Source: Pseudomonadota bacterium (lineage in GTDB: Bacteria; Pseudomonadota; Gammaproteobacteria; Steroidobacterales; SZUA-146). Taken from it: a DNA stretch of 43,341 nucleotides. Shown here piece after piece: positions 27,123 through 43,063 of this stretch. Both the position numbers and the translations under genes were made by a program. Below the pieces are notes generated by a model. It was not told the origin of the DNA. It worked only from the letters and a program-made list of their open reading frames with translations, and did not search any database. Position 1 is the first letter of the stretch. Each line of letters starts with the position of its first letter. The stretch spans positions 1 to 43,341 of the forward strand of contig JBCCHD010000033.1 in the NCBI GenBank assembly GCA_039028935.1, in the 5' to 3' direction.

Positions 27123-27198
27123 GTCCCCTTCGTCTAGAGGCCCAGGACTCCGCCCTTTCACGGCGGCAACAGGGGTTCGAATCCCCTAGGGGACGCCA
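27123..27198 (+). tRNA. tRNA-Glu (anticodon TTC)
   Basis: 76 nt. Acceptor GTCCCCT pairs with AGGGGAC, followed by the discriminator G and an encoded CCA. Anticodon stem CCGCC/GGCGG encloses loop CTTTCAC with anticodon TTC. The T arm is AGGGG-TTCGAAT-CCCCT. It reads GAA and GAG codons and is the substrate of the gltX product at the other end of the window. Confidence 0.98.
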
Positions 27199-27210
27199 TC
27201 TAATTAAAAT

Positions 27211-27247
27211 GCCCCCTGCGCCTCTGGCGCAGGGGGCTTTTTAATTT
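27211..27247 (+). terminator. Strong intrinsic terminator after tRNA-Glu
   Basis: A perfect 12-bp stem, GCCCCCTGCGCC (27211-27222) with GGCGCAGGGGGC (27226-27237), closes a TCT loop and is followed by TTTTTAATTT. It lies 12 bp after the tRNA CCA end and cleanly ends that transcript. An A-rich run before the stem may give weaker function on the minus strand. Confidence 0.93.
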
Positions 27248-27483: not shown

Positions 27484-28401
27484 TCAATTGCCCATCATGG
27501 AGCGAACTTCGCACTCGGGATAAAAGTCCACCGAGTCTCCGCCAGATCTGGCGTCGATCACTTCCGTGATTTCGCCGGTCGTCAAGTCTTCAATTTTTAT
27601 TGGGTACTGGTTCTTAAACTGCTCGCTGAACAGCACGCCCGTGAGTTCTGTTTCCATCAGTGCACCGCCACCGAGCTTAGCGAGGTAATCTTCGTACGTT
27701 GATGCCATGGCCTCCATAGCGCGACGAATGTCTTTGCCGCCGTCGATTTTGCGGGTACTGACCGTCCAGATGCGGTGTTTTTCAGCGCCACTTTCGTCAA
27801 CGACTGAATAACCTTTGGCCTTATACTTGCCGATTGTTTTGGTCTCGCCAAGCGACCTTGCGGTCATGGTGCCCCGCGGTTTGGCATCGGTAATGTTCAT
27901 CATTGGATTGATTAGCTGATTAAGCGCCTTTTCCTGTTCAGCAGACATTCCCTGTTTTCGAGCTTCTTGCATAGCTTCTGCAATCTGGGCGTTCGCTTTT
28001 GCCATGGCATCGGCCATTTGCTTTTGCATGTCACCCATCTTCATTCCACCCATAGCGGCGTCCAGCCCCATTGGTGCCTGCGAGTCAGCGGTCAGTTTTC
28101 GACACACCGTACCGTCAAGATCGACGATCGCCTCGCCGCGGCTTTGAAAGAGCGTGACTTCCTGGATTTTGCCCAAATGGTATTCAACCTGTGCATCGTT
28201 GCTCGATGCGGAGCCGGCTGCCGACATGGTAGAGCTCGTGCTGAAATTTCTTTCCTCAATACGCAAATCGCCCGAGGAATTGGCATAGGTGTCAATGCGG
28301 GAAATTTTGGTGTCGCCAATCCGTACTTCAGCAGTGATTTGTGCGGCTAAGACCGAACTGGACACCCCAAAGAGAAAGAAAATGAGGGTGAGTTTTTTCA
28401 T
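27484..28401 (-). CDS. Secreted DUF4412-like protein of unknown function
   Basis: 305 residues with a clear signal peptide (MKKLTLIFFLFGVSSSVLAA). The mature part has a beta-rich N-terminal half. A methionine-rich helical insert follows at about 118-168 (MGGMKMGDMQKQMADAMA). A second beta half then reads TIGKYKAKGYSVVDESGAEK and RIWTV, the layout of DUF4412-type periplasmic proteins. No catalytic motif is visible. Ribosome site AGGAT lies just before the ATG. It is divergent from the transglutaminase-like gene and shares a 210-bp intergenic region holding two dyad sites, so it may be co-regulated with that block. Confidence 0.65.
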   Translation of the reverse strand: MKKLTLIFFLFGVSSSVLAAQITAEVRIGDTKISRIDTYANSSGDLRIEERNFSTSSTMSAAGSASSNDAQVEYHLGKIQEVTLFQSRGEAIVDLDGTVCRKLTADSQAPMGLDAAMGGMKMGDMQKQMADAMAKANAQIAEAMQEARKQGMSAEQEKALNQLINPMMNITDAKPRGTMTARSLGETKTIGKYKAKGYSVVDESGAEKHRIWTVSTRKIDGGKDIRRAMEAMASTYEDYLAKLGGGALMETELTGVLFSEQFKNQYPIKIEDLTTGEITEVIDARSGGDSVDFYPECEVRSMMGN

Positions 28402-28467
28402 GGCTTTATCCTAATGAGCAGTGCAAAACATTGGGCTACGCTACGAGACGCCAGTAGTGAACTCAAT

Positions 28468-28483
28468 TAGGGCAGACGTACTA
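28468..28483. promoter_or_regulatory. Dyad operator candidate, copy A
   Basis: TAGGGC-AGAC-GTACTA. It matches the inverted half-site pattern TAGTRC-N4-GYACTA at 11 of 12 defined positions. It lies in the divergent region between the DUF4412-like and transglutaminase-like genes, 57 bp centre to centre from copy B. Confidence 0.45.
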
Positions 28484-28524
28484 GTCGGGCCCAAATGCTG
28501 CTACTAAAGGCGTTTGGCGACGAG

Positions 28525-28540
28525 TAGTGCATGTGTACTA
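28525..28540. promoter_or_regulatory. Dyad operator candidate, copy B
   Basis: TAGTGC-ATGT-GTACTA: two inverted 6-bp half-sites of type TAGTRC separated by 4 bp. It is centred about 80 bp upstream of ATG 28612. A possible -10, TATCAT at 28564-28569, follows without a good -35, as expected for an activated promoter. Confidence 0.5.
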
Positions 28541-28611
28541 GGGCTTGTTGAGCACTGTTTCGCTATCATCCTCGCGACCGATGTGTAGCAGACGCAGCCT
28601 TGGGGGTAATC

Positions 28612-30870
28612 ATGTTCAGGAACGCCATCGCGATTTTCATCTTCGTCTTTGTGTGGATGGTTCAGGCCGAACCCTGTTCTGCGGCGCCGATGTCGGCATT
28701 TGTTAGCGATTACTACTCGGATGCCTTTGAGGCGGTCAGTTCCAAGATTGACTTTGTGCCTTATCGCGGGGCGCTCAGAGATGCCGAGGGCACCGCCAGA
28801 GACGAGCGAGGCAATTCGGTGGACCAATCTCTGCTTCTTGCGGCGGCCATACGCGACTCGGTGCATGCGGTGCGCTTTGTTGAAGGTGGGTTAAATAAAG
28901 AGGCGATCGCGCAACTGCTTGGTCATTCTCATTCCAGTCCATTTGACTACTCCGCTGCCGGTCAAGTATCGACATCGAGAAATCGATACGATCCAGTGAA
29001 CGACCGACAGATGCAACGCGTCGTCCGTCAACACGTATGGCTCGAAGTTCAGCTGGAAGAGAATGGCGATTGGATTGCCTTGGACCCCTCCTTTCCCAAT
29101 GCCCAGCCCGGCCAATCATTCGGTACCGTTTCCAAGACTCATGAAACACTGCCGAGCCAGCTCCAGCAGAAGCTAAAGTTCACGTTGTATCGCCAAACGG
29201 CGAGCGGTGCGCGTCAGCGTGTAGGCGGTGTTCGCGGCACAGTGTCTGAGTTGACGGGGCATCCGATTTCAATTGTGCTGCGTGGGATTCCGCAATACGA
29301 ACCGCGCCAAGAAGGTGATCAGGAAATAGATCGTGGCTTATTGGATAGCAAACCAGGCGGTCTACTTGGTGGCGGTTTCGGTATGGGAGGGTCAAATGAC
29401 ACTGCTCAGGAAAAAGACCAGGCAGCGTCCATTCAAAACAACAGCGTTGACCGTCAACTGATCGGTGTTGAATATCGCGGTGAATTCAGCGTGAAAGGGG
29501 AAAAGCCCGATTCACTTAAGGCAACGACCGTTGCTATCGAAGAGGCGTCGAACCGCATTGTGCGCGAGTGGCTGGAGATTGAGCTGCGTGTGCCCGGCCA
29601 GCGGACACGGAAAATTCAGCGTGATTTGTTTGTTTCAGCAAACGAAAAGGATCGGCCAGCTGACATTCGACGGTACAGTATTGCGGTCATCGCGGGATTG
29701 ATGAACCAAAGCGAATTTGAGTTACAGCGGGCGCGTTTGCAACCCCAAGTAGTGAGTCACGCAAAAAGTGAGTTGAACGCCATTGGTACTATCGAAAATG
29801 TAAATGAACGAGCGTCAAAGCTCATCGAACTCGAGGCGGTGCATGCGTTTACGCCGTATCTACTTAATCTTGCGTTTGCTATGGAGTCTGATGCGATGAC
29901 CCATCGTTTGGCGCGCGGGGCTGGAGTGAGAGTGATTCATTCGACACCGCGAATTCTCATCAGTAGCGTTGAGACCGGTGTCGACAGCGACGCTGACATC
30001 ACGACCGACATAACGCTCGATTTGCGGTTGGACGAGGTGGTTGCATTGCCTTATGAGGGAATGCCAAAGGGCGTGGCATCACTATTTCAACGCGCACGTG
30101 GCATGCAGGAGTCTCATTTGGAGGGGAGTGTTCTGGAACGATTTGTAGCGGATCCGAGCAAGGTTATTACCACCACCCGACTGATGGACGCGGCCCAGCG
30201 ACAGGGTAAACAGCTATTGGTGCTGACACAGAAGAGTAAGGAAGTGCTCAGTGAGTTGATGCTGCCAAAAATTGTGTTGCAACGCTTGGAGGCAACCCTA
30301 GAGGAGGGGTATCAGGTCATCATTCCTTCCAGTGCCGTGCAGTTGTTTGGTTCCGCACACTGGGGTTGGTGGAGTGTTGATCAGACAACGGGTGCTTTTG
30401 TGGGTGTCATGGAAAGTGGTCAGCACCAGGCGATGGGTCAGTACTCCCTCACGCTTGAAAAGATTGGCGTGAATGACGCCATGGGCTTCGTAATAGGGGC
30501 GCTCACAGGGTCCACGGCAACCATGACCCTGTATTCGGCAAAAATGATTGAATACGGACAAGTCACCGAGCAATTGATCGCCGAGGTGGCCGCCGGAATT
30601 GAGCGGTTAACCTGCGTCACCTGCCCAAGTTTCGAAGTCGTCGTATCGCCAGTGGCCGCGTCCGCTAGCATTGGGTCTCAGTGCTTTGAGGAGAGTGGTT
30701 ACTCAATTGGAACTGGCGCTGGTGTCAGCGGCAGTATCAGTTTCTGCGAGAAATACAAATTGGGAATTTCTTGTGCTGCCAGCCTCATGCTGGGTACGTT
30801 TGAGGTTGAAGGAAACGTGGGTGTTGGTCCGAATGTGAATCTAGATCTGGGGCCACTTAGTTGCGATTAA
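28612..30870 (+). CDS. Secreted transglutaminase-fold protein with Ser in place of catalytic Cys
   Basis: 752 residues with a signal peptide (about 1-25, ending CSAAP). The transglutaminase-like core is recognisable from GNSVDQSLLLAAAIRDSVHA (about 67-86), where family members have GxCxEQAxLLxALLR. It continues through HVWLEVQL with His141 and DWIALDPSFP with Asp158. The nucleophilic Cys is Ser69, so ordinary transglutaminase or protease activity is doubtful. The rest is not recognised by family. It includes a glycine-rich linker near 258 and an SSAVQLFGSAHWGWWSVDQ block near 571. The C-terminus is rich in Gly and has six Cys in the last 85 residues, suggesting disulfides. ATG 28612 follows a GGGGG ribosome-like tract. 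The next gene starts 5 bp after its stop. Confidence 0.72.
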   Translation: MFRNAIAIFIFVFVWMVQAEPCSAAPMSAFVSDYYSDAFEAVSSKIDFVPYRGALRDAEGTARDERGNSVDQSLLLAAAIRDSVHAVRFVEGGLNKEAIAQLLGHSHSSPFDYSAAGQVSTSRNRYDPVNDRQMQRVVRQHVWLEVQLEENGDWIALDPSFPNAQPGQSFGTVSKTHETLPSQLQQKLKFTLYRQTASGARQRVGGVRGTVSELTGHPISIVLRGIPQYEPRQEGDQEIDRGLLDSKPGGLLGGGFGMGGSNDTAQEKDQAASIQNNSVDRQLIGVEYRGEFSVKGEKPDSLKATTVAIEEASNRIVREWLEIELRVPGQRTRKIQRDLFVSANEKDRPADIRRYSIAVIAGLMNQSEFELQRARLQPQVVSHAKSELNAIGTIENVNERASKLIELEAVHAFTPYLLNLAFAMESDAMTHRLARGAGVRVIHSTPRILISSVETGVDSDADITTDITLDLRLDEVVALPYEGMPKGVASLFQRARGMQESHLEGSVLERFVADPSKVITTTRLMDAAQRQGKQLLVLTQKSKEVLSELMLPKIVLQRLEATLEEGYQVIIPSSAVQLFGSAHWGWWSVDQTTGAFVGVMESGQHQAMGQYSLTLEKIGVNDAMGFVIGALTGSTATMTLYSAKMIEYGQVTEQLIAEVAAGIERLTCVTCPSFEVVVSPVAASASIGSQCFEESGYSIGTGAGVSGSISFCEKYKLGISCAASLMLGTFEVEGNVGVGPNVNLDLGPLSCD

Positions 30871-30875
30871 CGCCC

Positions 30876-33800
30876 ATGTTGACGTCGTTCCTGACTGTAT
30901 TTTGGACGCTAGGGGTGTGTGCTCAGACCTTGACCTTACCCAGCGACAGTGCGCAAGACGTCCGTGAGGCGGCGACTGCTACTGAGATCGAACCCAACAA
31001 CCGGCGGTCCGAGGCGACTGAGGTTGATGTGGAATGGCCGATTCGAGGCAGTCTGGGAATCGGTGATGTCGACTATTTTCGGTTCTCCATCGGGGACGAG
31101 AATGTCAATCGGGATATTGGTTTTGACCTTTCAACTGCCGTCAGAGTTGACTTGTGTCTGTACGGCAGCGCGGGCAAAAAGATCAAATGCACACGTGGCC
31201 ATCGCACCATCTTCTCGGGACTGACGCTAAAGGGCGACTATCTACTGTCTATCTCGACGGTCGCCAGACAAAAAAATGCCATCGCCTACTCCCTCAAGAT
31301 GACTGGGTCTCGGCCTAATCGAACGAACGAAGAGGTTGAGCCAAATGACCGAGCAGAAGATGCCTCTCTCCTAAATTCAGAAGGCCTGATCAAAGGAACG
31401 ATCAGCGAAGACGATGTGGATGCTTTGCGTTTTCGTGTGAGTGGCGAGCGCAAGATGTGGCGCATCGTCGCTTCCAGCGAAGGCATTAATGCGATCTCGT
31501 TGGAGACGTCGGGAGGCCGGGAACTGCAACAGCGCAGTGGCAGCAAGAGTGAGCGTGTTCTGGACTTTCTGTTTTTGCCGCAAGGGGACTATATCGTCAA
31601 GCTGAAGGGCAAAAAGACTGCTGTGGATGAGCCGTATACGCTGACGGTTGAGGGGGTAGGGGCGCTCGAAGAGCGTGCTGCGAAGATGGCTGCCGATGAT
31701 CACGGTTCACTGTCGTCTGCCGGAGCGCGAATTGAAACCGAGCCGAACGACCATAGAAGCCAAGCGCAGCGTATGCAATTTGCGTTGGATTACATCGGTG
31801 AATTGGCGCGCGGCGATACGGACTACTATCGGTTTTACTTGCCCGGCCATGCTCGCGTACGCTTCGACGCAACACCGGCCGGCGACGGCCAACTGAGTAT
31901 AGCGGTCGATGGAAATCGAATCGGTAGCAGTCGGCAACCCAACGAATCGCTGCAGATAGAGCAGGATCTGTTGCCCGGAGATCATTTGCTGCGGCTACGC
32001 AGCAGCCGTCCGGGGCAGGGGACCTATCGCCTGCAGGCCGTGATCATCGATCCATTTATCGAGCCGGACAATGAATTGTCGTCGATTGAGGTGAAGATTA
32101 CTGGCGACACACCAACACTGGCAGCGTATGAAGAGACGGGACAAAGACTCAAGTTGGCGATGCGTGTGCAAAATAAGGCAGACCAGGTAGAGAATCTCAC
32201 AGTCGTTTCAGCAAGTAGCCATGCGGGTGTCCATGTTCAGAGTGATCAACCGGCGTTGACGCTAAATCCGGGTGAAGCTAAGCGAGTGACCTTTGATATT
32301 CAGGTGCAACCGGACCTACGTGACGATCTGGATACTCTGATTTCAATGGGCGTTAGGACTCGCTCAAATGACTACACGGGTAATTCGATATTTCTTGACG
32401 CCGCGTGCGGTGTGACGCCGGTTAATGCCACTCGTCTCTGGCCAATTCCTGAGGCTTTGTTGGGGCAGGTTAATGCCGCTTGGACGGGCATGGGCGGACG
32501 ACTGTTGGACGCTGGCCGGCACGGAGGTAGAGCAACCGATGACGTCGTCACCCGATCTGCCGGCGCCTGGCATCCCAAGCCGGGTGTCTACACGGTAGAG
32601 CTCGGTGGCGACAAGCCGTTGACCGTCATTGGTACGATTATTCATCCGACCGGTTCCCCCCACACTGAGAATCAACTCAAGGAGTTTGCTCTGGAGCTGT
32701 CTACTGATGGTAAGCACTTCACGTCGGTACTCGAAGGGTCTCTTCGCGCGGATGCGCAAGAGCAAGGTTTCGTTCTTGAGCAACCTGGCAAAGCGCGATT
32801 TGCGCGGTTGCGAATGCTCAATAGCTACAAAGGGGAGAATCGCGAAATCGCGTTTGGCGAATGGAAAGTCATCGTCAGCGACTCGCCTGCCGAAGTCCTC
32901 GGTACTGCGGTCAACATTGCAGACAATCAGTTGGGTGGCTACGACGTGTATAGCCTCCCGTTTACCGGTGGTCGCTGTTGCCATGAGACATTTAGTACCG
33001 CAGCGGAAGATGGGCAGTTTTCTGGGTCGCATGAGAAGTATGAATGGGTGATGGGTTTTCGTAATAACCGCGCTGCAAAAATCGCATCGTTGCAATGGGT
33101 TTCATCTGAACAGTGGGGCGTGAAAAATACCAATCGGTTTTTCAGTGACGTGGATATTGCGGTCGCGATGGACAGTCCGACCGGGCCGTGGCGGCCTTTG
33201 GCCAAGTGGCCCTTGAAGCGAGACAGCGACAACGTGGCAACGTTGCAGCTGGATTCACCGGTTTGGGCTCGATTTGTCAAGTTCCGTGCTGCACCGCCAG
33301 CCGGTGTGCCGATTGTCCCGAAACACGTCAAGATTATTGAGGCCGCAACGAGCCTTGATTACCAGTCGGTCGTTGGAGAATGGGGCTATGCAACAAAAGC
33401 GGCATCCTTCGAGCGTTATGCAGCCCAAGATGCGTACGAAGCTGTTACACAACGCGATGCCGGTGATAGTCGAGCTTCGGCATCATTATTGACTGTCGAT
33501 AATCGAGTCGGCGGCACGGTTCTTGTGGGGGAAGATGAGGACTGGTATCGGGTGAGCGTGTCCACCGGATCCAATACGCTTTTATGGCGATTACACAATC
33601 GATCATCCATCGAATACGCTTACCAGCTGTATGATTCGGCGGGTCGTGAGGTGGTAACAGAGTCGCGCACCGTCGACGAGTATTTGGAACTCAGTAGTCG
33701 CGTTCAACCCGGGGAATACTATTTGAAGTTGTATGAGCCAAAGCGCTCCGTCCTTTTTTCTTGGGACACGAGTGGCAGTGTCGGCCCGTACTACGATGTC

Positions 33801-35111
33801 ATTGATCACACCATGAAAGCGTTTGCCGACGGCATCAGACAAGAGCGCGAGGAAGTCAATTTGATTCCGTTTAATGATCCTGAGCCTGTTCTATTATTGG
33901 ATCAATGGAGCAGTGATCCGAGCGGAGTGTCACAAGCAATTGTCAATTCAGGAAGGAGGTTCGGTTCCAGTAATGCCGAGTCGGCCCTACTCATGGCGAC
34001 AACAGAATTAAAAGATCGTGTGGGCACAAAGGCGATATTGTTTGTGACCGATGCAGAAACCGATGGACTGCAGAGAACGGGCGACTTGTGGCGCGCATTG
34101 AGTGAGGTAAGACCACGCGTATTCAGTTTCGAGCTAAGTTCCAAAGGGCGGGCGACACCACAGGATATGATGCAAAGCTATGCAGCCGTCAATAATGGCT
34201 ATTACGACTACGCGTTAACGGCGGGATCGCTACAGGTTGGGTTTGATCGGGCAATATGCAAGATTCGTCGACCCAAACCCTACAGCATCAGTGCACACTA
34301 CGATGAGCGAGCGCTTCCCGATCCTGGCAGCCTCAAAGTTGAACTGGAGCGCTCGCTCTCACAACAGGATGCGGTTGAGGTGATTCTGGACGCATCTGGG
34401 AGTATGTATAAGAAACTGGGTGATGAATTTCGTTACCAAATTTCACTCGATGTGCTCGATGATTTAGTCACGAATGGACTACCGGATCAGATCGGTTTCG
34501 CTTTGCGCGTGTTTGGTAATCGCGAGGCCAGTAGTTGCCGCACCGATCTGGAGATTCCCTTGGCGTCGCTCGACCGCACAGCTGTTCGTGAGAAAATCAA
34601 AAGAATCAGGCCGCAGCCCTACGCCTACACTCCGCTTGCGGCCTCCATACGCCGTGTCGCGACCGATTTGCGGTTATCAAAAGGTCGCAAGACTGTGGTG
34701 CTCATTACCGACGGGGAAGAATCCTGTGATGGCGATGTGAGCGAGGCGATCAATGCGCTTCGCGAAAACGACATAGACGTACAATTGAACATCATTGGAT
34801 TTGACGTTGATGCAGACAATGAGAAGAAAGCACGTGAGGCGTTTCAGCGTTGGGCCAAGCTTGGCGGGGGCGCTTATTTTGATGCCGACAGCGCCGATGG
34901 GCTGGCGGATTCTCTGGCGCTGGCAACCCGTATTTCGGTGGCCTTTGACGTTGAGGATGCAAACGGCGACAGTGTGGCAAGCGGTATGACGAACGGGCCG
35001 ACGCTAAGTTTGTTACCCGGCGAGTACACGATCACGTTTGCCGACGATTCGATCGCATCGCAAGCTATCGAGATTATCAGTGGGGAAATTACCCGGCTAG
35101 TGGTTGAGTAA
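30876..35111 (+). CDS. Giant secreted VWA protein with PPC-like and F5/8C-like domains
   Basis: 1411 residues with a signal peptide (MLTSFLTVFWTLGVCAQ). PPC-like modules start at about 39 (EIEPNNRRSEATEV), 153 (EVEPNDRAEDASLL) and 289 (ETEPNDHRSQAQRM), with another PPC-like unit near 861. A discoidin-like (F5/8 type C) segment spans about 522-672. VWA domain 1 (about 960-1110) has the MIDAS start DTSGS and a later VTDAETDG. VWA domain 2 (about 1170-1345) has DASGSM, a Thr in YAYTPLAASI and ITDGEESCDG, a complete MIDAS set. A short beta domain ends the protein. Metal-dependent adhesion or surface interaction is plausible. It is almost certainly co-transcribed with the transglutaminase-like gene. 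TTG 30861 would start earlier; ATG 30876 is preferred. Confidence 0.8.
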   Translation: MLTSFLTVFWTLGVCAQTLTLPSDSAQDVREAATATEIEPNNRRSEATEVDVEWPIRGSLGIGDVDYFRFSIGDENVNRDIGFDLSTAVRVDLCLYGSAGKKIKCTRGHRTIFSGLTLKGDYLLSISTVARQKNAIAYSLKMTGSRPNRTNEEVEPNDRAEDASLLNSEGLIKGTISEDDVDALRFRVSGERKMWRIVASSEGINAISLETSGGRELQQRSGSKSERVLDFLFLPQGDYIVKLKGKKTAVDEPYTLTVEGVGALEERAAKMAADDHGSLSSAGARIETEPNDHRSQAQRMQFALDYIGELARGDTDYYRFYLPGHARVRFDATPAGDGQLSIAVDGNRIGSSRQPNESLQIEQDLLPGDHLLRLRSSRPGQGTYRLQAVIIDPFIEPDNELSSIEVKITGDTPTLAAYEETGQRLKLAMRVQNKADQVENLTVVSASSHAGVHVQSDQPALTLNPGEAKRVTFDIQVQPDLRDDLDTLISMGVRTRSNDYTGNSIFLDAACGVTPVNATRLWPIPEALLGQVNAAWTGMGGRLLDAGRHGGRATDDVVTRSAGAWHPKPGVYTVELGGDKPLTVIGTIIHPTGSPHTENQLKEFALELSTDGKHFTSVLEGSLRADAQEQGFVLEQPGKARFARLRMLNSYKGENREIAFGEWKVIVSDSPAEVLGTAVNIADNQLGGYDVYSLPFTGGRCCHETFSTAAEDGQFSGSHEKYEWVMGFRNNRAAKIASLQWVSSEQWGVKNTNRFFSDVDIAVAMDSPTGPWRPLAKWPLKRDSDNVATLQLDSPVWARFVKFRAAPPAGVPIVPKHVKIIEAATSLDYQSVVGEWGYATKAASFERYAAQDAYEAVTQRDAGDSRASASLLTVDNRVGGTVLVGEDEDWYRVSVSTGSNTLLWRLHNRSSIEYAYQLYDSAGREVVTESRTVDEYLELSSRVQPGEYYLKLYEPKRSVLFSWDTSGSVGPYYDVIDHTMKAFADGIRQEREEVNLIPFNDPEPVLLLDQWSSDPSGVSQAIVNSGRRFGSSNAESALLMATTELKDRVGTKAILFVTDAETDGLQRTGDLWRALSEVRPRVFSFELSSKGRATPQDMMQSYAAVNNGYYDYALTAGSLQVGFDRAICKIRRPKPYSISAHYDERALPDPGSLKVELERSLSQQDAVEVILDASGSMYKKLGDEFRYQISLDVLDDLVTNGLPDQIGFALRVFGNREASSCRTDLEIPLASLDRTAVREKIKRIRPQPYAYTPLAASIRRVATDLRLSKGRKTVVLITDGEESCDGDVSEAINALRENDIDVQLNIIGFDVDADNEKKAREAFQRWAKLGGGAYFDADSADGLADSLALATRISVAFDVEDANGDSVASGMTNGPTLSLLPGEYTITFADDSIASQAIEIISGEITRLVVE

Positions 35112-35139
35112 GTAGAGGATCTTTCGCAGAATTAGGGAT

Positions 35140-35766
35140 CTATCGGAACCCGTAGGTTGCCGCTAGCGAGGCGGCAGCTGAACGTGAACTGACACCCAGT
35201 GACTTGAGCATAGCGGATACGTGAATGCGCACCGTATAGGGTGATAGGCCCAGTGTGCGCGCAATCTCTTTGTTGGATTGGCCTTTAGCGATGAGTTTCA
35301 ACACGTCGATCTGCCTTGGCGAAAGGGCCGCGAGGGGGTCCTCTTGATTCACGTCGTCTTGTTGAAAATCGCCCTGACTGGATGCCATGAGGGTCACCGT
35401 CTCACCGTCCAGTACATTGACGATTGCCGTCGAGATGAACTCCGGTTTGACTGCTTTGGATACAAAGCCGTTAATGCCCGTCGCCATTATCTCGTTGATG
35501 GTATCACTGTCGCGCATCATCGAGATCACCAGGATTGGCGTAAACGGGAGCTGTTGTCGCAGCTTTGGCAGATCCTTCTGGTGATCAAAACCAGGAAAGA
35601 AAAGGTCGAGTATGGCGATATCCGGCGATGGATTCACGACCAGCGCATCCCTCACACCGGCGATGTCGCCCGCCTCATGTATTGTGATGCCGGCATAAAG
35701 ACGCGTCAGCATCAGGCAGATGCCTTCTCGAAAAATCGGGTGGTCATCGGCGACGAGCGCTTGCAC
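35140..35766 (-). CDS. NarL/LuxR-family response regulator
   Basis: 208 residues: a receiver domain (about 1-120) with acidic pair ADDHP, phosphoacceptor Asp in AILDLFFPG (about 54), conserved Ser in VISMMRD and Lys in GFVSKAV. A GerE/LuxR-type helix-turn-helix follows ([20 protein letters not shown], then [16 protein letters not shown]). All phosphotransfer residues are present. GTG 35766 is the start, with AAGGAA about 6 bases upstream. It is divergent from the hybrid kinase, which is probably its partner, and convergent with the VWA gene (28-bp gap). Dimeric binding to an inverted repeat is the family norm. Confidence 0.92.
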
Positions 35767-35804
35767 GGGAATTCCTTACTCGCAATTAGGTATTGAGTGT
35801 ACCC

Positions 35805-35816
35805 GAGCTTAAGCTC
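35805..35816. promoter_or_regulatory. 12-bp perfect palindrome in divergent regulator/kinase promoter
   Basis: GAGCTTAAGCTC lies 38 bp upstream of the response-regulator start and 8 bp from dyad copy C. It may be a second operator or overlap the regulator gene promoter. Confidence 0.4.
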
Positions 35817-35824
35817 TGTGCCAT

Positions 35825-35840
35825 TAGTACGGAAGCACTA
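35825..35840. promoter_or_regulatory. Dyad operator candidate, copy C
   Basis: TAGTAC-GGAA-GCACTA, the same half-sites as copy B in opposite order. A flanking base pair set extends it to CATTAGT...ACTAATG (35822-35843). A possible -10 TACTAT at 35874-35879 follows for the kinase gene. Confidence 0.5.
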
Positions 35841-35902
35841 ATGCAGGTGGTACGCGATCTCAAGGGGTTTTGGTACTATGTTTTGGTAGATGTGCCGGAG
35901 AT

Positions 35903-37708
35903 ATGCGCGCTCTCATGCTTGGAATGTTATTCCCTAAATCCAGTAATGCTGACACCAGGAATTTTCTCCAACTTTGGTTGCGACCTAAGTCTGCGTTGCC
36001 ACTGCTTGCCTTTAACGTAATCGTTGCAGTTTTCTTTGTGTTGGTTTTCTGGCGGGAACACTCGCGCGAAGATCTTACGGTTTGGTTAGTGGTTATTATT
36101 GGATTAAGTGTTTTAGAAATTGCTTTCCGGCGACTTGGATGTGGGCTATCGCAGCTGAGTGACGATACGACCGCAAGACTCGTGCTGGTTGTGGATGTGA
36201 TGATCGGATGCTGTTGGGCGTATGCGTCGTGGCGCTACTTTTCCGCCGAGTTACCGTATTTGTTGTTGTTCTTTTTATTGTTGATTGCGATCTGCACAGT
36301 CGTCTTTCAGCATCTCTTAATCGTGCCTATGGTTCTTCGCGTTGGCGTCGCGCTTCCCGTAGCCGCATTACAAGTCTATGGCGTGGGTGACAACCTCTCT
36401 ATCGTGCAGGCATCGGTTCTAATTGCCATTTGGTTGGGGGTGTTATTTTTGGGGCTGCGGTTACACTTTTCTGTACGTCAGCGCGTGGCATTGATAGCAA
36501 GTCGAAATTCACTGCTTGCGAAAGTTGAAGAAAGTGCGCGGGAACTTGATCAGGCGCGTGTTCGTGAGGAAGAGTCCCGGCGTCAGGCAGAGTCGGCCAA
36601 TCTGGCAAAATCGCGTTTTCTGGCGCATTCCAGTCATGACCTGCGTCAACCGCTCCATGCAACGAGCTTGCTATTGGAGTCGATTGATGATGAACAGCTC
36701 GACGAGCAGACGACCCATACCATCGGTCGCGTACGTAAGTCGGTTGAATCGCTGGCCGGGCTGTTTGATTCATTATTGGATTTGACACTGTTGGACACCG
36801 GGCAGGTCTCAATTCGGCATGAGACGTTTGAGGTTAGCGAAGTCATCAAGGAAATTGGCTTTGAGTTCTCTGCTGCCGCAACCCATCATCAAGTGGCGTT
36901 GATTACCGATCCTACCTCGAGATGGATTCATTCGGACATCACAGTGATTCGACGAATTCTACAGAACCTGGTCGCTAACGCGATAAGGCATGCGGATGGT
37001 CAGCAAGTGTCCATTGTGGCGAGTGAGCGGGATGATGGAATTTGGCTGGAAGTGCGAGATACAGGGATCGGGATTAGCGAACAAGATCAAGTACGGATTT
37101 TCGAAGAGTTTACCCGATTAGACTCGAACAGAATGGATAAGTCATACAGTAGCCTTGGTCTGGGTCTAGCCATCGTTAGTCGTCTCGCAAAGCTCATTCA
37201 AAAGCAGATTGATTTGACATCAGAACCTGGTCGCGGAAGTGTTTTTCGGGTCGGTCCGTTCAAAATGCAGTCAGCGGCGGTTGCGAAGACCTTGCGTGCC
37301 GAAAGGGACAAGCGTTCAATGGAGCCGCTTCGTGTGTTAATCGTAGATGACGATCCGGATACGCTGCGTGCCACAGGTAAGCTGTTGAAGAAGTGGCGAT
37401 TCGTCGTTGAGATGAACAATGGTATTGAGCCTTTATCCCAAGACAAACCCGATGTATTGATTTGTGACTTCGAGTTGGGTGATCATAAAACGGGGGTCGA
37501 TATTATGCGTGAGGTACGCCAAGAACACGGATCCGTCATCCCAGCTCTTTTGATTTCCGGCAACACGTCACCGGAGCTCGCCGCCCTAGCGTTAACGGAG
37601 GGCGTTCCGTTGTTGCACAAACCGGTTCGAGCGGCACAACTTAAATCGGCGATTCTGACTCTGCTGGGAAACACCGCTAAACGATCTCAAACGTCTCAAA
37701 AATCATAA
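35903..37708 (+). CDS. Hybrid sensor histidine kinase with C-terminal receiver
   Basis: About 601 residues. Six or so hydrophobic helices (about 30-185) form a membrane sensor without a large periplasmic domain. A coiled coil follows (about 195-235). The HisKA box SHDLRQPLHATSLLL has His near 245. The HATPase domain has RILQNLVANAIRHADG (N box), EVRDTGIGIS and SLGLGLAIVSRLA (G boxes). The receiver domain starts LIVDDDPDTLRATGK, with phosphoacceptor Asp in LICDFEL (about 521), LLISGNTSP and LLHKPVR. This kinase-receiver layout usually relays to a separate output, here most likely the divergent LuxR-type regulator. ATG 35903 is only 2 bases from GGAG; ATG 35915 or 35924 are alternatives. The TPR gene follows 16 bp later. 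Confidence 0.9.
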   Translation: MRALMLGMLFPKSSNADTRNFLQLWLRPKSALPLLAFNVIVAVFFVLVFWREHSREDLTVWLVVIIGLSVLEIAFRRLGCGLSQLSDDTTARLVLVVDVMIGCCWAYASWRYFSAELPYLLLFFLLLIAICTVVFQHLLIVPMVLRVGVALPVAALQVYGVGDNLSIVQASVLIAIWLGVLFLGLRLHFSVRQRVALIASRNSLLAKVEESARELDQARVREEESRRQAESANLAKSRFLAHSSHDLRQPLHATSLLLESIDDEQLDEQTTHTIGRVRKSVESLAGLFDSLLDLTLLDTGQVSIRHETFEVSEVIKEIGFEFSAAATHHQVALITDPTSRWIHSDITVIRRILQNLVANAIRHADGQQVSIVASERDDGIWLEVRDTGIGISEQDQVRIFEEFTRLDSNRMDKSYSSLGLGLAIVSRLAKLIQKQIDLTSEPGRGSVFRVGPFKMQSAAVAKTLRAERDKRSMEPLRVLIVDDDPDTLRATGKLLKKWRFVVEMNNGIEPLSQDKPDVLICDFELGDHKTGVDIMREVRQEHGSVIPALLISGNTSPELAALALTEGVPLLHKPVRAAQLKSAILTLLGNTAKRSQTSQKS

Positions 37709-37724
37709 TGTAGTGGGGGTAGGG

Positions 37725-40100
37725 ATGACTGCCAATGATTCGCCGAACAGCGATCCTAAAGGAAATGTTGCCAAAGACATCCGTAGCGACCTTGACGCAC
37801 TACGGGCGCTGGATGAGTCCGAGTCTCGAGCAAATTGGGGTCCTGCCGTTGCAATACTCGTTTTACTGGTTTGTACGTTTGCGTTTGTCGGGTGGTTTGG
37901 GTTTGATCAGAAAAACAGTGATTCCCCGCTGGTCTATAGTGAGAAGGTCGCCGTCGACCAAGCATTAGTCGGTGGATCATGGGTTGCGGAGGCCTTAAAT
38001 CAAGCACTGAACGCAACTTTACGTTCTAGCGAATACGTGCGGGTTGCCAATGTGACCGAATCCGCTCAGTTGGGCCGACGCTTTGGCGGTAAAGTGCAAA
38101 CCCAGTCGAGCAAAGACGCGCCCTGGGTTCTTCAGACAGTCGTGAGTGGCAGCGATGATGATGTGCTATCCATAACCTTGGTGCTTGTTGACAATAGTGG
38201 CGAATCCGCGCAGCGCAGTGCGACGATCGTCGGCACGAAGAATGGGATTTTCGACCTGGCAATTCGCTGCGCTGAGCAAGTGCACGCCTGGTTTGGTATC
38301 GATGGCCTTGCACGCGACACGGTCTCATTTGCCAACAATGAAATTCCTGGTCCTAAAGCCAGTCGCCTTTATGGGTCCGGCATGGCGGCACTAGAGTCGC
38401 TCGATCCAACTAAAGCGATTGAGTACTTTGATCAAGCGTTGGCAGTATCGCCGAACAACCCCACAATTTTAGAGGGTTTGGCGAGGGCTTGGTTGCAACT
38501 TGGCTACCGAGACAAGTACGTCGATGCGGCGAAGCGAGCGTTTGAAGCCAGCGACAAGCTGTCACGCAAGCGTCAATTGGAGCTCGAAGCTCGTTATGCG
38601 GTTGCCACGGAGACATGGGAGCGGGCGTCGCAGGTCTACGGCGCCCTAAAAGAATTCAGCCCTGACGATCTGAGTTATCGGTTGGCTTTGGCCGAAACCC
38701 TGGTGAGTCAGAATTTGGGTGATGAGTTTGAAAAGAGCATTGCGGAAATGCGTTCTCTGGGCGGCGGGCTCGGTGCGGACCCACGCATTGATTTGACCGA
38801 ATCATGGTATTGGTATGTGGTCGGTGACTACAGTCAGTGTGCGGCACTGGCAACGAAAGCAAAACAAAAAGCCAGCGAAAGGTCGCATCTGATGGCCGAA
38901 GCGCTCGTTGCCTATTCTCGTTGTGATGATAACTACAATCCGACGCTTCTACTCGAAGCCCGAGCCATATTCAATGAACTAGGAATTACTTCTCGGGAAC
39001 CAGAGATACTTCGCCAGCTGTCGCAGCATGAATACGCACAGGGCAACATGAGTGAGTATCTGGGCTATCTGGAAGACGCTGTCGCAGTGTCTCAAGAGAT
39101 GGGCAACACGCCGCAGCTTGCGGCCTCCCAGAATTCGCTCGCGCAAGCCTATGACCTACACGGATGGCTGGAGCGCGGTCTCGCCTTAAAGAAGGAAGTT
39201 GCCGACTACCAGCGCGTTCGGGGGAACAAGAACCGGGAGTCGATTACGCTCGAGAATATTGGCGTATCGTTATTCAAATTGGGTCGTTACGAGGAGGCCT
39301 TGCGCTCCTACGCCTCTGCCGAGACGATCTTTCATGAAATCGGGGACAAGATTGGTATCGCCTGGTTACCTTTTCGGCGTGGGCAAATTGCCCTGCGTCA
39401 AGGGCGTCTAGATGAGGCGCGACGGTTAATGGAACAGGCTGCTGAAAACGCCCAAGAGCGTCCGGAGGGTAATCTTCTTCTAAACGCGCACTACGAACAA
39501 GGACTGTATCTGTTGTATGCCGGTCAATTTGATTCAGCGAGAGCACAATTGGAGAAAACGCTGAAGAAGTTCCAAGAGCTTGGGCTTGATCTGAGCAGTG
39601 CGGAAGCGGCTATTGCATTGGCACGTGTTTATCGTGCGCTCGGCGAGCCCGAAAGTGAGGAGGTACACCTTGATACGGCACAAGGGCTGATAACGGATGA
39701 TGCCGCTTACCTGTCGCTCTCTATTGCGATTGAGATGATCGACTTTTCAAGTGCCGCGCCACCGCTAGAAATGGCCAATCGCTGCAATCGGTTGAGGCAA
39801 TCTGTAAGCAATCAGGAACATTTGCTCTACGTGCTGCGAGCCCAAATCAATTTGGCGATGTGCTCGGTCATCGTGGATCAAGAGTCGGCCACGGATGCGC
39901 TTGACGATCTGGATGGAATTATTCACCAAGCGGAATCATTTGATGTTTTCGAAGCACAGATAGCCGGGAAAATTGCGAAGAGTGTCGTGTTGCGAATGCT
40001 CGGTGAATCGACCGAAGCCGACGCAGTAGAGGCGCAGGTGGCACAGCGGGTAGCGCAAAGCAATTGGTTGATACGATCCGTTCCAAAGAGTGTTCACTGA
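37725..40100 (+). CDS. Membrane-anchored TPR-repeat protein
   Basis: 791 residues. A short cytoplasmic tail is followed by one transmembrane helix (about 36-58, VAILVLLVCTFAFVGWFGF). A TolB/FlgO-like periplasmic module then spans about 75-200, and tetratricopeptide repeats run to the C-terminus. Examples are SGMAALESLDPTKAIEYFDQ, ENIGVSLFKLGRYEEALRSY and EQGLYLLYAGQFDSARAQLE. The TM-TolB-like-TPR plan resembles the sensory half of CadC-like winged-helix regulators, but the DNA-binding domain is absent. It may scaffold or sense for the adjacent kinase, with which it is probably co-transcribed. ATG 37725 is preferred to GTG 37713 because of the GGGGGTAGGG tract before it. Confidence 0.75.
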   Translation: MTANDSPNSDPKGNVAKDIRSDLDALRALDESESRANWGPAVAILVLLVCTFAFVGWFGFDQKNSDSPLVYSEKVAVDQALVGGSWVAEALNQALNATLRSSEYVRVANVTESAQLGRRFGGKVQTQSSKDAPWVLQTVVSGSDDDVLSITLVLVDNSGESAQRSATIVGTKNGIFDLAIRCAEQVHAWFGIDGLARDTVSFANNEIPGPKASRLYGSGMAALESLDPTKAIEYFDQALAVSPNNPTILEGLARAWLQLGYRDKYVDAAKRAFEASDKLSRKRQLELEARYAVATETWERASQVYGALKEFSPDDLSYRLALAETLVSQNLGDEFEKSIAEMRSLGGGLGADPRIDLTESWYWYVVGDYSQCAALATKAKQKASERSHLMAEALVAYSRCDDNYNPTLLLEARAIFNELGITSREPEILRQLSQHEYAQGNMSEYLGYLEDAVAVSQEMGNTPQLAASQNSLAQAYDLHGWLERGLALKKEVADYQRVRGNKNRESITLENIGVSLFKLGRYEEALRSYASAETIFHEIGDKIGIAWLPFRRGQIALRQGRLDEARRLMEQAAENAQERPEGNLLLNAHYEQGLYLLYAGQFDSARAQLEKTLKKFQELGLDLSSAEAAIALARVYRALGEPESEEVHLDTAQGLITDDAAYLSLSIAIEMIDFSSAAPPLEMANRCNRLRQSVSNQEHLLYVLRAQINLAMCSVIVDQESATDALDDLDGIIHQAESFDVFEAQIAGKIAKSVVLRMLGESTEADAVEAQVAQRVAQSNWLIRSVPKSVH

Positions 40101-40771
40101 GAGGGTAAATCGGATAGCGTGTCGGCTGATTCCCGATTGGAGGGGTGGGGATCATTGGCAGAGGGAGAACGCTGATGCCACCTCGCACCAGTTTATGGAC
40201 CAGGTTACCTTCCACCCCGTCGGAATGCCCAAGACGTTAAGCCTGTCCCGTGGACATAGCGACCAATCGGTTGTTCTTTTCGTTTGGCTGGGAATACCAC
40301 GCGCGCCCGATATAGTTCTCCTTCGTTTCGGTCACAAGCTCCTCTTGTACCCGTGCGCGATAAGCGCACAATCTTAGGCCCCACACGGCGACTTGTGCCG
40401 CGTTGCGTTTGCAATTAGGCGCTGCAATCCGAATTTCGTGCAGCATTTCCATTCATATGTGAATACTGAGTCTCGTATGGCATTGGTCTGCGCGAATACA
40501 GGCTCATCGACGGTCGTCATTTGACGCCCTGTATTGGGCGGTTAGCGATTGAAAACCGTATGGTTTATACCGATTACTCCCATACGGTCGCGTGGCTAAG
40601 GTGCGTCACATTGCAGGCGTCGATCGGAATTCGCCCGATATGTCCTCGGTGTAAGGGAGCGTGCTAGACTCGATGACAATCGGCGGCATACTCAGAATAA
40701 ATCGGCGGGGATCCATCGCACGAACGCAACAGTAGCCGCCTGTTCAGTTAATGTTTAGGGGGGGTACCACT
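40101..40771. other. 670-bp noncoding region before the LVIVD-repeat gene
   Basis: No gene I can defend. A minus-strand frame (40237-40452, 71 codons) and a plus-strand frame (40090-40377) have no ribosome site or recognisable content. The region carries a 9-bp inverted repeat (40555-40588) and a G7 tract at 40758-40764 directly in the ribosome-binding zone of the next gene. Confidence 0.5.
40555..40588. repeat. 9-bp inverted repeat with 16-nt spacer
   Basis: ACCGTATGG (40555-40563) and CCATACGGT (40580-40588) are perfect inverted copies. The site is about 190 bp upstream of the LVIVD-repeat gene and could be an operator. The spacing is too long for a tight hairpin terminator, and no T run follows. 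Confidence 0.35.
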
Positions 40772-43063
40772 ATGATTCGGAACGCAACGGGTTGCGCGCT
40801 AGAGTACGCAGCAAATTCTGACACACGACACAATGCGCGCTTTAATGTGTCGATGGGCAAGGTATTCAGTGCGTTGGTCACCATGCTCGTCTCTTTGTCG
40901 TTTGCGACGGCGATCTCTGCGCAGGAGGCACCGTTTAATATTGGCTTGGTCGGCACATTTGATCAGGCGAATAACTACGCCGATATTTGGGGCGATGGCA
41001 ATTACGCCTATCTTGCTCGATTCGGCGTTAACGAAATCAATATTGTGGATATCTCCAATCCTGCTTCGCCACAGTTAGCGGCGACTTACGACACGGGTGT
41101 CGGTGGAGCGAGCGCGCAAGACGTTAAAGTACACAACGACCTGATGTTCGTGAGCCTGGAAGGGGTTAGCCCCGGTGCGCAGATCGTTGATGTGCGCAAT
41201 CCGGTTGCGCCGGTGAAGCTCACCGATATTACTGTCCGAACGGCGGTGCACAACACCTTTTATTATGAGGGCTGGTTGTACCTCGTGGACAGTCAATTAA
41301 ACGAAGTCGACATTGTTGACCTGCGAAATTACGATCCTGACAGCGCGCCGAGCGTGATTGCGACAAGCACCTACGAAATGGTTAACGTCGGGAATCAGTT
41401 CGTGCACGACATTACGGTGCAGGATGATCGACTCTACGTGTCCGCCTGGGACTCGATTCGTATTTTTGATGTGTCGAACCTCGATAGTGGGCCACCGGTG
41501 TTTATGGGTTCGGCGCAAGGCAATGCCGTCCATGCGGCTTGGCCAACGGGTGACAATCGTTTCTTGGTGGTATCAGAAGAACGGGCGAGTGGTGGTTTGA
41601 CGCTCTACGAACTCGATGACAATGGCACAACAGTCACCCTCACACTTCGCGATGCGCTCACGCTTGACTCCAGTCGCGCTTTCAGTACCCATAATCCCGT
41701 GGTGGTTGGTAATACGGTCTACGCTTCTTGGTATGAAGCCGGTTTGCAGGTGCTTGAAATCGACCCGGTGAGTGCTACCTGGGACGTTGTCGCCAGTTAC
41801 GACACGTCACTCTTGACGGGTGCGAACGGTTTCTTTGACGGCAATTGGGGTGTCTACCCCTTTCTGGGTACCGATCGAGTTTTAGCCAGCGACGTGCAAA
41901 ACGGTCTGTTTGTGCTTGATGTCGATCCCAATTTATTGCGATTTGATTTCCCGGGCGGACTGCCAACCACGGTGACACCACAGTCACCCACTGTGCTTCA
42001 ATTAGTGATTTCAGAGATTGGATCACCACTTGATCCGGCTACGGCCACGCTTCAGCTGGCAATCGATGGCGTATCCCAAAGCCCGGTTGCCCTCAACAGT
42101 TTGGGCGGTGGCGTCTTCGAAGCGGTGTTACCCGCTGCAACGTGTGGCAGCGTGATCACCTACTCAGTGACCGCCCAAAATGCGCAGGGGGATACGTTTA
42201 CCGAACCGTCGACGGGCAGTTATACGACCACCGCGGTGAGTCAGGTAGTGAATACGTTCAGCGATACGTTTGCATCCGACGCCGGGTGGTCGACCGTAGC
42301 CACGGACCTCACGACCGGAGAATGGGTGTTGGGTACGCCAATCGGCACCGGCGCGCAACCGGGCGGGGGATGGCCAGGCGATGCCGACAACCAGTGCTAT
42401 TTCACCGGACAGGGCACACCGGGTGGTGGTATTGGTGAGGCCGATGTCGATGGTGGGCCTGCCATTCTGACTTCACCCGCCATGGACTACTCACAAGGTG
42501 ATGGTCCGGTGAGCTATGTGTACTGGTTTTCTAATGACGATGGCGATGACAGTTTGGTGGTCGAACTGTCGAGCGAGGGTGGTGCCTGGGTGGAAGCCGC
42601 TCGATACTCAGGTGGCGTGGGTAACTGGATCGAAGACAGCGTGAATGTTGGTGACTTCGTGACACCCAGTGCCGACGTGCGCGTGCGTTTCGTCGTATCG
42701 GATAACCCGAACGATTCGGTGACGGAAGCCGCAATCGATTCGATTCGCGGCGATGTCTTTTTGTGCGATGTAATCACCGATACTGATGGTGATGGGGTCG
42801 GTGACGACACCGACAATTGCACGAATGTGGCTAATCCCGATCAGCGTGATACGAATGGTGATGGGTTTGGCAATGTCTGTGACGCTGACCTCAACAACGA
42901 TGGCGTCATTAACTTTATCGATGTAAGTCAGTTCAGCGCGGTATTCCTCGGCAACGACGCTGACGCCGATTTTAATGGCGACGGTGCGGTTAATTTCGTT
43001 GATTTTGTACTTGTCAGCCAGAGTTTCTTGGGCGCACCGGGCCCTAGCGGCGTAGCGCCCTAA
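40772..43063 (+). CDS. Secreted LVIVD-repeat protein with thrombospondin-3 and dockerin-like C-terminus
   Basis: 763 residues. The hydrophobic signal core MGKVFSALVTMLVSLSFATA sits after a long N-region; ATG 40853 is a possible shorter start. Beta-propeller-like LVIVD repeats follow (for example INIVDISNPASPQLAATYD, AQIVDVRNPVAPVKLTDI and SIRIFDVSNLDSGPPVFMGS). A carbohydrate-binding or Ig-like beta segment lies at about 390-500 and a jelly-roll-like domain at about 500-665. The thrombospondin type 3 stretch is DTDGDGVGDDTDNCTNVANP. EF-hand-like DLNNDGVINFIDVSQF and DFNGDGAVNFVDFVLV resemble dockerin I. These acidic loops should bind calcium outside the cell. The ligand is unknown. G7 at 40758-40764 provides or disturbs the ribosome site. 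Confidence 0.82.
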   Translation: MIRNATGCALEYAANSDTRHNARFNVSMGKVFSALVTMLVSLSFATAISAQEAPFNIGLVGTFDQANNYADIWGDGNYAYLARFGVNEINIVDISNPASPQLAATYDTGVGGASAQDVKVHNDLMFVSLEGVSPGAQIVDVRNPVAPVKLTDITVRTAVHNTFYYEGWLYLVDSQLNEVDIVDLRNYDPDSAPSVIATSTYEMVNVGNQFVHDITVQDDRLYVSAWDSIRIFDVSNLDSGPPVFMGSAQGNAVHAAWPTGDNRFLVVSEERASGGLTLYELDDNGTTVTLTLRDALTLDSSRAFSTHNPVVVGNTVYASWYEAGLQVLEIDPVSATWDVVASYDTSLLTGANGFFDGNWGVYPFLGTDRVLASDVQNGLFVLDVDPNLLRFDFPGGLPTTVTPQSPTVLQLVISEIGSPLDPATATLQLAIDGVSQSPVALNSLGGGVFEAVLPAATCGSVITYSVTAQNAQGDTFTEPSTGSYTTTAVSQVVNTFSDTFASDAGWSTVATDLTTGEWVLGTPIGTGAQPGGGWPGDADNQCYFTGQGTPGGGIGEADVDGGPAILTSPAMDYSQGDGPVSYVYWFSNDDGDDSLVVELSSEGGAWVEAARYSGGVGNWIEDSVNVGDFVTPSADVRVRFVVSDNPNDSVTEAAIDSIRGDVFLCDVITDTDGDGVGDDTDNCTNVANPDQRDTNGDGFGNVCDADLNNDGVINFIDVSQFSAVFLGNDADADFNGDGAVNFVDFVLVSQSFLGAPGPSGVAP

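Follow-up and report, generated by a model that had tools for sequence, protein, structure and literature searches.

The stretch of DNA analyzed here, which we refer to as the window, spans 43,341 nucleotides (positions 1 to 43,341 of contig JBCCHD010000033.1, GenBank assembly GCA_039028935.1) and comes from a gammaproteobacterium of the order Steroidobacterales. It raises the question of what is encoded by six genes at 27484-40100, which a sequence-only reading had singled out as a candidate envelope system: genes for a small secreted protein (SSP), a pseudo-transglutaminase (TG), a giant protein with von Willebrand factor type A (VWA) domains, a response regulator (RR), a hybrid histidine kinase (HK), and a protein with tetratricopeptide repeats (TPR). 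All six open reading frames are present in the orientations given by that reading, with gaps of 5 bp between the TG stop and the VWA start codon, and 16 bp between the HK stop and the TPR ATG at 37725 (an alternative GTG lies at 37713). Our answer, held with about even confidence, is that they form one autoregulated envelope module, in which TG and the VWA protein are the effector half, TPR-HK-RR the sensory half, and a shared dyad controls all the genes.

The neighborhood that had been marked out is conserved. We compared the window's own genome (G000) with that of a congener (G001) and with two genomes of another family, which are close relatives of each other (G009 and G022). Contig C145 of G009 and contig C38 of G022 carry all six genes in identical order and orientation, with identities to the window proteins of 66-67% for RR, 56% for TG, 51-52% for the VWA protein, 45% for HK, and 36-37% for SSP. 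The TPR protein is ∼45% identical in G022 and 37% identical in G009, where the contig end cuts the gene and leaves only part of it. Among 59 genomes searched (the window's own and those of its genus and order), six have a match to TG and 13 have one to the VWA protein, which in several of these 13 covers the C-terminal VWA region only. The N-terminal region of the TPR protein (37830-38357 in the window) is found in four, i.e. G000, G001, G009, and G022, which are the same four that have the module with this type of RR. The flanks differ in G022, which has an M1 peptidase gene on one side rather than the capsule-type cluster of the window and showed no polysaccharide cluster next to its module; the G009 contig is too short to compare. 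Moreover, when the intergenic flanks of the window were compared with five loci, only one 23-bp piece matched (E 0.003). A TG profile built from four sequences finds three of 369 genomes across the class at 1e-10, one being the window's own and another, G295, encoding a much larger protein; a broader profile of six sequences matches 12 of 396 genomes across the order at 1e-6, other TG types included. These findings show that the six genes are a real conserved unit, which is rare and patchy.

The six genes also share a putative operator. Inspection of the divergent regions in G022, G001, and the window suggested an 18-bp dyad pattern (YTAGTACRNNNGNNYTAR). In the window, two sites match it perfectly and a third does so with a single mismatch; all three lie in the module, compared with 0.22 expected, and none of 100 dinucleotide shuffles reached three sites. 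The shared dyads by which the sequence-only reading had tied the secreted genes to the regulators are thus borne out. Seven genomes together contain eight perfect dyads, two each in G000, G001, G009, and G022, all of them in the module, where they sit in the SSP-TG and RR-HK regions (SSP-TG and upstream of RR in G001), and none in G002, G012, and G042. At up to one mismatch, there are 9 dyads in G000, 23 in G001, 6 in G009, 13 in G022, and 5 in G002; four loci without this RR (L030, L033, L034, and L069) have none at that level. A 14-residue segment of the helix-turn-helix (HTH), which we take to hold the recognition helix, is identical in all four RRs.

Features of the module and its predicted regulatory sites (window coordinates)
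Feature	Position	Strand	Description
SSP	27484-28401	-	305 aa; not assignable to DUF4412
TG	28612-30870	+	predicted exported pseudo-transglutaminase, 752 aa; ATG 28612; putative dead TG-fold domain (~25-190), middle region, GWWxxD segment, Cys-containing C-terminal region
VWA protein	30876-35111	+	1411 aa; ATG 30876; EPN/PPC-like repeats, F5/8 type C, two VWA
RR	35140-35766	-	NarL/GerE-type response regulator
HK	35870-37708	+	hybrid histidine kinase, HisKA-HATPase-receiver
TPR protein	37725-40100	+	short N-terminal segment, one predicted transmembrane segment, domain so far seen with this module only, TPRs
Dyad site 1	28467-28484	-	perfect match to YTAGTACRNNNGNNYTAR; SSP/TG divergent region; predicted RR-binding site
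Dyad site 2	28524-28541	-	one mismatch; near TG start
Dyad site 3	35824-35841	+	perfect match; RR/HK divergent region

Pfam identifies HisKA, HATPase, and receiver domains in HK and a receiver with a GerE output domain in RR, which would together make up a two-component pair. Upstream of its kinase domains, HK has five hydrophobic stretches called as possible transmembrane segments, and Pfam recognizes no further domain in this membrane part. In the TPR protein, Pfam finds the TPRs, which are predicted to lie on the periplasmic side. In the VWA protein, it finds two VWA domains, one F5/8 type C domain, and, below threshold, PPC. Both VWA domains have a DxSxS motif and the second also has TPLA and TDGEES, consistent with a metal ion-dependent adhesion site (its Thr and Asp positions were read in the second domain). 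As assessed by a hydropathy scan, SSP and TG have an N-terminal hydrophobic stretch, and no stretch above threshold was called in the VWA protein, which by our reading of its sequence appears to carry a signal peptide.

The congener carries a decayed copy of the module. Contig C329 of G001 encodes intact SSP (46% identity) and RR (70%), and both dyads are kept. Between the two genes (1424-2972 of locus L036), TG and the VWA protein persist only as remnants, corresponding to residues 34-66 and 71-84 of TG in two frames (756-aa numbering from 28600), and to residues 322-438 and 942-1195 of the VWA protein (1416-aa numbering), with one and two internal stops. A separate contig of this fragmented assembly (∼450 contigs), C178, carries an intact TPR gene (41%) and, at its end, the 3' part of HK. 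If the six genes form one autoregulated module, the signaling half outlives the effector half in G001, which makes this genome a natural experiment, with one half kept and the other lost.

The same pattern raises the possibility, which we regard as doubtful, that SSP belongs to the sensor, serving HK-TPR as a periplasmic ligand or feedback protein, with TG-VWA as one replaceable output. Retention of SSP in G001 together with RR, the HK end, TPR, and the dyads, where TG and the VWA protein have been deleted and interrupted by stops, speaks for such a role, as does the position of SSP beside a dyad-bearing region in all four modules. However, the decay in G001 could be recent, with SSP just not yet lost, and SSP relatives occur in seven genomes in which no module was found. 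The window's own genome also has an SSP paralogue elsewhere (contig C10, 90372-91202; 6354-7208 of locus L120), which has no module neighbors and no dyad within two mismatches in its 14-kb region.

The identity of SSP itself had been proposed as DUF4412-like, a proposal that found no support. Orthologues of SSP are found in L029, L031, and L036. Neither Pfam nor NCBIfam recognizes SSP, none of four orthologues matches DUF4412 (PF14371) at E up to 10, and a profile comparison with two true DUF4412 neighbors gave a probability of 1.5% (E 0.034). DUF4412 genes, which match PF14371, neighbor TG-VWA in two related loci, of G012 and G355. The sole hint for SSP is DUF2291, in two of the four orthologues (best E 0.0089), and no sequence relative was found in the PDB.

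Judged from its sequence, TG is a pseudoenzyme, in which a LapG/transglutaminase-type fold is kept and the nucleophile lost. It scores 22.8 bits against Transglut_core (PF01841), for which the cut-off is 23; of nine homologues, those of G355 (24.4) and G757 (23.6) pass, five fall below, and two have no match. In keeping with its earlier designation as a pseudo-transglutaminase, the nucleophile Cys is absent in all 27 aligned homologues, an alignment that omits the G001 remnant, a G032 fragment lacking the region, and L073, which is the second of the Aminicenantes fragments. The position is occupied by Ala in most, and otherwise by Ser, Pro (one), or Asp (one); the G001 remnant reads GNSIDQ in this region. 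A structure model built from five sequences is confident only in residues ∼31-190 and 531-580, with 11 of the 16 ten-residue blocks within 31-190 at a predicted local distance difference test (pLDDT) value of at least 76, and a poor loop at 111-130. No sequence relative of TG was found in the PDB, and Foldseek alone gave nothing below E 0.001 (best E 0.0099). A second look at Foldseek's own candidates aligned the TG domain with PeiP (Z 11.2, 2.8 Å, 120 residues), LapG (4fgp_B; Z 11.0, 3.2 Å, 126 residues), and PeiW (Z 10.5). Toward the C terminus, Cys 671, 691, 712, and 721 are common to TG and the Aminicenantes protein of L040, and C671 alone is common to the Acidobacteria protein.

LapG is a cysteine protease, which in the Lap system is tied to large surface proteins. 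With LapG among the closest structural matches of TG, and a capsule/exopolysaccharide cluster adjoining the module in the window, TG-VWA might be a case of LapG-like regulated retention, with TG controlling the release of a surface protein. Module and Lap system (LapG/LapD; BTLCP, C93) have in common a transglutaminase-type fold in a predicted exported protein (Z ∼11) and a link to large surface proteins. They differ in that TG lacks the catalytic Cys throughout its 27 homologues, the large partner is another protein, and a two-component system stands in place of LapD, whose type of GGDEF/EAL cyclic di-GMP receptor domain is absent in the seven proteins scanned. The missing Cys and GGDEF/EAL domain argue against release control by TG, as does the absence of a visible polysaccharide cluster next to the module in G022 (the G009 contig being uninformative), and we consider it improbable. 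It is less probable still that TG is active with Ser or another residue as nucleophile. Although the Cys position is occupied by Ser in the window protein, which also keeps His141 and Asp158, most of the 27 homologues have Ala there (or, once each, Pro and Asp). Neither His nor Asp is kept in G012, G042, and G428, and Asp is also lost in G777. Finally, a chance neighborhood of unrelated envelope genes beside a capsule cluster would agree with the rarity of the module and can be set aside almost entirely, considering the six-gene order kept in another family, the different flanks in G022, the shared dyads, and the matching phyletic pattern.

We return to a single autoregulated module, which might work as follows. 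Once exported, TG and the VWA protein would become part of a structure at the surface or in the periplasm, either by forming it or by docking onto it. Because the nucleophile has been lost from a retained fold, TG should bind only: it would bind a peptide or protein, which it would neither cut nor cross-link, and the dead fold would thus supply recognition. The VWA protein may be its large metal-dependent binding partner or a surface scaffold, in which the VWA and F5/8 type C domains could give metal-dependent and surface binding. The TPR gene directly follows that of a kinase in whose membrane part no sensor domain is recognized. This makes the TPR protein a natural candidate sensor, which would read the periplasm and pass its state to the multi-transmembrane hybrid kinase. 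HK would in turn drive the NarL-type RR, and RR would bind the 18-bp dyad in both divergent promoter regions, controlling SSP, TG-VWA, its own gene, and HK-TPR together. The biochemical role assigned here to the module is predicted from sequence, and the module probably builds or monitors something at the cell surface. Of the original proposal of a regulated surface or envelope module, the conserved and regulated unit thus stands, albeit a rare and patchy one across the class, and adhesion or envelope sensing may be its role. The module opens two questions to testing: what a pseudo-transglutaminase recognizes, and in what way a kinase without an evident periplasmic sensor might receive its input from a periplasmic TPR protein.

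Several observations weigh against this account. There is no recognized fold for SSP, whose single-sequence model (mean pLDDT 41) is too poor for use, or for the middle and C-terminal regions of TG (mean pLDDT of the model 47). SSP-like proteins occur in 11 of 196 genomes, including the seven mentioned above. In the phylum of the Acidobacteria contig, where a TG profile matches 10 of 149 genomes at 1e-10, nine of the ten show no VWA neighbor in the stretch fetched, three of the contigs being shorter than 7.1 kb. A search for sigma-70-like promoters at the dyads found none. Some of the sites scored with the dyad pattern had also gone into building it, and we therefore performed a held-out test using a consensus of the two window sites alone. 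In favor of the dyad, G001, G009, and G022 have best matches with 0, 2, 1, 2, 2, and 2 mismatches in their six corresponding regions. When each region was shuffled 1000 times, 0 or 1 of the shuffles did as well; among random stretches of the same loci, which may include true sites, 7-30 of 1000 did. A reversed-pattern control outnumbers the pattern in every genome, e.g. 100 to 9 in G000 at up to one mismatch. Such words are therefore generally scarce, and the rarity of the dyad elsewhere is weaker evidence than it seems. Independent support for the dyad is thin, given the close relationship of G009 to G022 and the placement of G001 in the window's own genus.

The TG-VWA pair occurs beyond the six-gene module, in G355, G012, G042, a second G009 copy, one Aminicenantes contig, and one Acidobacteria contig. 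Two short peptide patterns run against the genome_contigs collection, which may exclude the window's own species, recovered four loci (two from Candidatus Aminicenantes, one from Acidobacteria, and one from a deltaproteobacterium). Seven of nine VWA partners examined have two DxSxS motifs and the other two have one. Of the 28 TG loci fetched, 10 contain the partner according to a VWA profile; the matches in L036, L040, L041, and L069 are independent, because the other six were in the alignment of the profile. As for the 18 misses, L039 and L042 end within the TG gene, TG adjoins a β-lactamase-family gene in L064, and L066-L068, L092, and L093 encode much larger TG proteins. L084-L091 belong to the phylum of the Acidobacteria contig and have other neighbors, two of them on contigs of ∼7 kb. 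In L063 (6042-10561) and L065 (5703-12309), a partner of an F5/8C-OmpA type, which could provide peptidoglycan anchoring, is encoded near the TG-like gene in place of a VWA protein; the two partners are 82% identical. Proteins of ∼1000 aa resembling TG are encoded directly after proteins of 2000-2500 aa in L066 (1205-10341), L067 (609-11574), and L068 (7011-17731), which come from two genomes. The second pair of G009 (contig C87; 3665-17257 of L030) has LytTR-domain and β-lactamase-family proteins nearby, and no matches to RR, HK, or TPR in its 18-kb stretch.

In two of these genomes, the pair is accompanied by kinases of another type. TG, VWA, and DUF4412 genes form an overlapping run in G355, and in G012 the same three (DUF4412, TG, and VWA) are flanked by two Ser/Thr-kinase-TPR genes. 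In G042, a kinase-TPR gene adjoins TG-VWA, and a second kinase gene, known as a family match only, lies farther away on the same side. There are thus two kinase genes within ∼10 kb of TG-VWA in each of these two genomes, and the three of these four that were examined each consist of a kinase domain, one hydrophobic segment, and TPRs. With so few protein kinases genome-wide (7 in G012 and 12 in G042), two in a given 20 kb are unlikely by chance (Poisson 0.001 and 0.0016, respectively, in an unplanned test of a pattern noticed before counting). These findings show that the TG-VWA pair occurs with different TPR-bearing membrane proteins. Tentatively, TG-VWA may be a previously undescribed extracytoplasmic pair common to the class of the window, Acidobacteria, and Aminicenantes. 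It would be a portable surface complex coupled to lineage-specific TPR-bearing receptors, the histidine-kinase/TPR set here and Ser/Thr-kinase-TPR proteins elsewhere, with the dead fold as the recognition part that reports on the complex.

Among known systems, RloB is a close precedent for TG. RloB, from the Pseudomonas aeruginosa rlo operon, is described as an inactive periplasmic transglutaminase that is tied to biofilm and envelope stress and fused to seven transmembrane helices, its partners in the operon being an aspartic protease and an ATP-grasp protein (PMC12239564). TG would likewise have an inactive transglutaminase domain facing the periplasm. It differs in having only an N-terminal hydrophobic stretch, and no such partner domains are found among the seven proteins scanned. 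Inactive papain-like and transglutaminase-like proteins, some of which are scaffolds, are discussed in another article (PMC10318531). Binding scaffolds made from dead transglutaminase folds are known from eukaryotes and from one periplasmic system of bacteria, that of RloB, to which the module would add a further bacterial example, self-contained and equipped with a sensor, a regulator, and a predicted operator of its own. MoxR-VWA ternary systems, which have a MoxR ATPase, also encode a VWA protein in a multigene unit (PMC7159879). In contrast, no MoxR ATPase is present among the 27 window proteins scanned, as the sequence-only reading had noted, and the VWA protein here looks exported. The best NCBIfam models for the regulators are of the ErcS/NahK type for HK (294 bits) and the ErdR type for RR (104 bits), both below their curated cut-offs of 400 and 390, respectively. 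No description of the module was found among the listed matches in the open-access literature, and it is apparently undescribed; its parts are of known kinds, and their combination and the role of the dead enzyme look new.

Two other ideas about the locus were discarded. A role in anti-phage defense was rejected, as PADLOC matches only the HTH part of RR, the kinase part of HK, and the TPRs, with none for SSP, TG, or the VWA protein. A mobile island was considered because of a tRNA-Glu gene at 27123-27198, but no tRNA was found in the nine related loci scanned. Next to this gene in the window comes a G+C-rich stem-loop of 12 pairs that has a T tract, and the two elements (27123-27237) divide the module from the capsule cluster. 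Directly downstream of the module, 40751-43063 encodes a choice-of-anchor B-like protein with thrombospondin type 3 and dockerin repeats, which we left outside the module because there is no dyad there. On the other side, the capsule/exopolysaccharide cluster extends over 1152-26522. It includes genes for an SLBB export protein, Wzi, a Wzz-like protein, and a flippase-like protein, dTDP-sugar genes, and genes for glycosyltransferases, a UDP-GlcNAc 2-epimerase, a sulfotransferase, an aminotransferase, a PIG-L deacetylase, and a formyltransferase.

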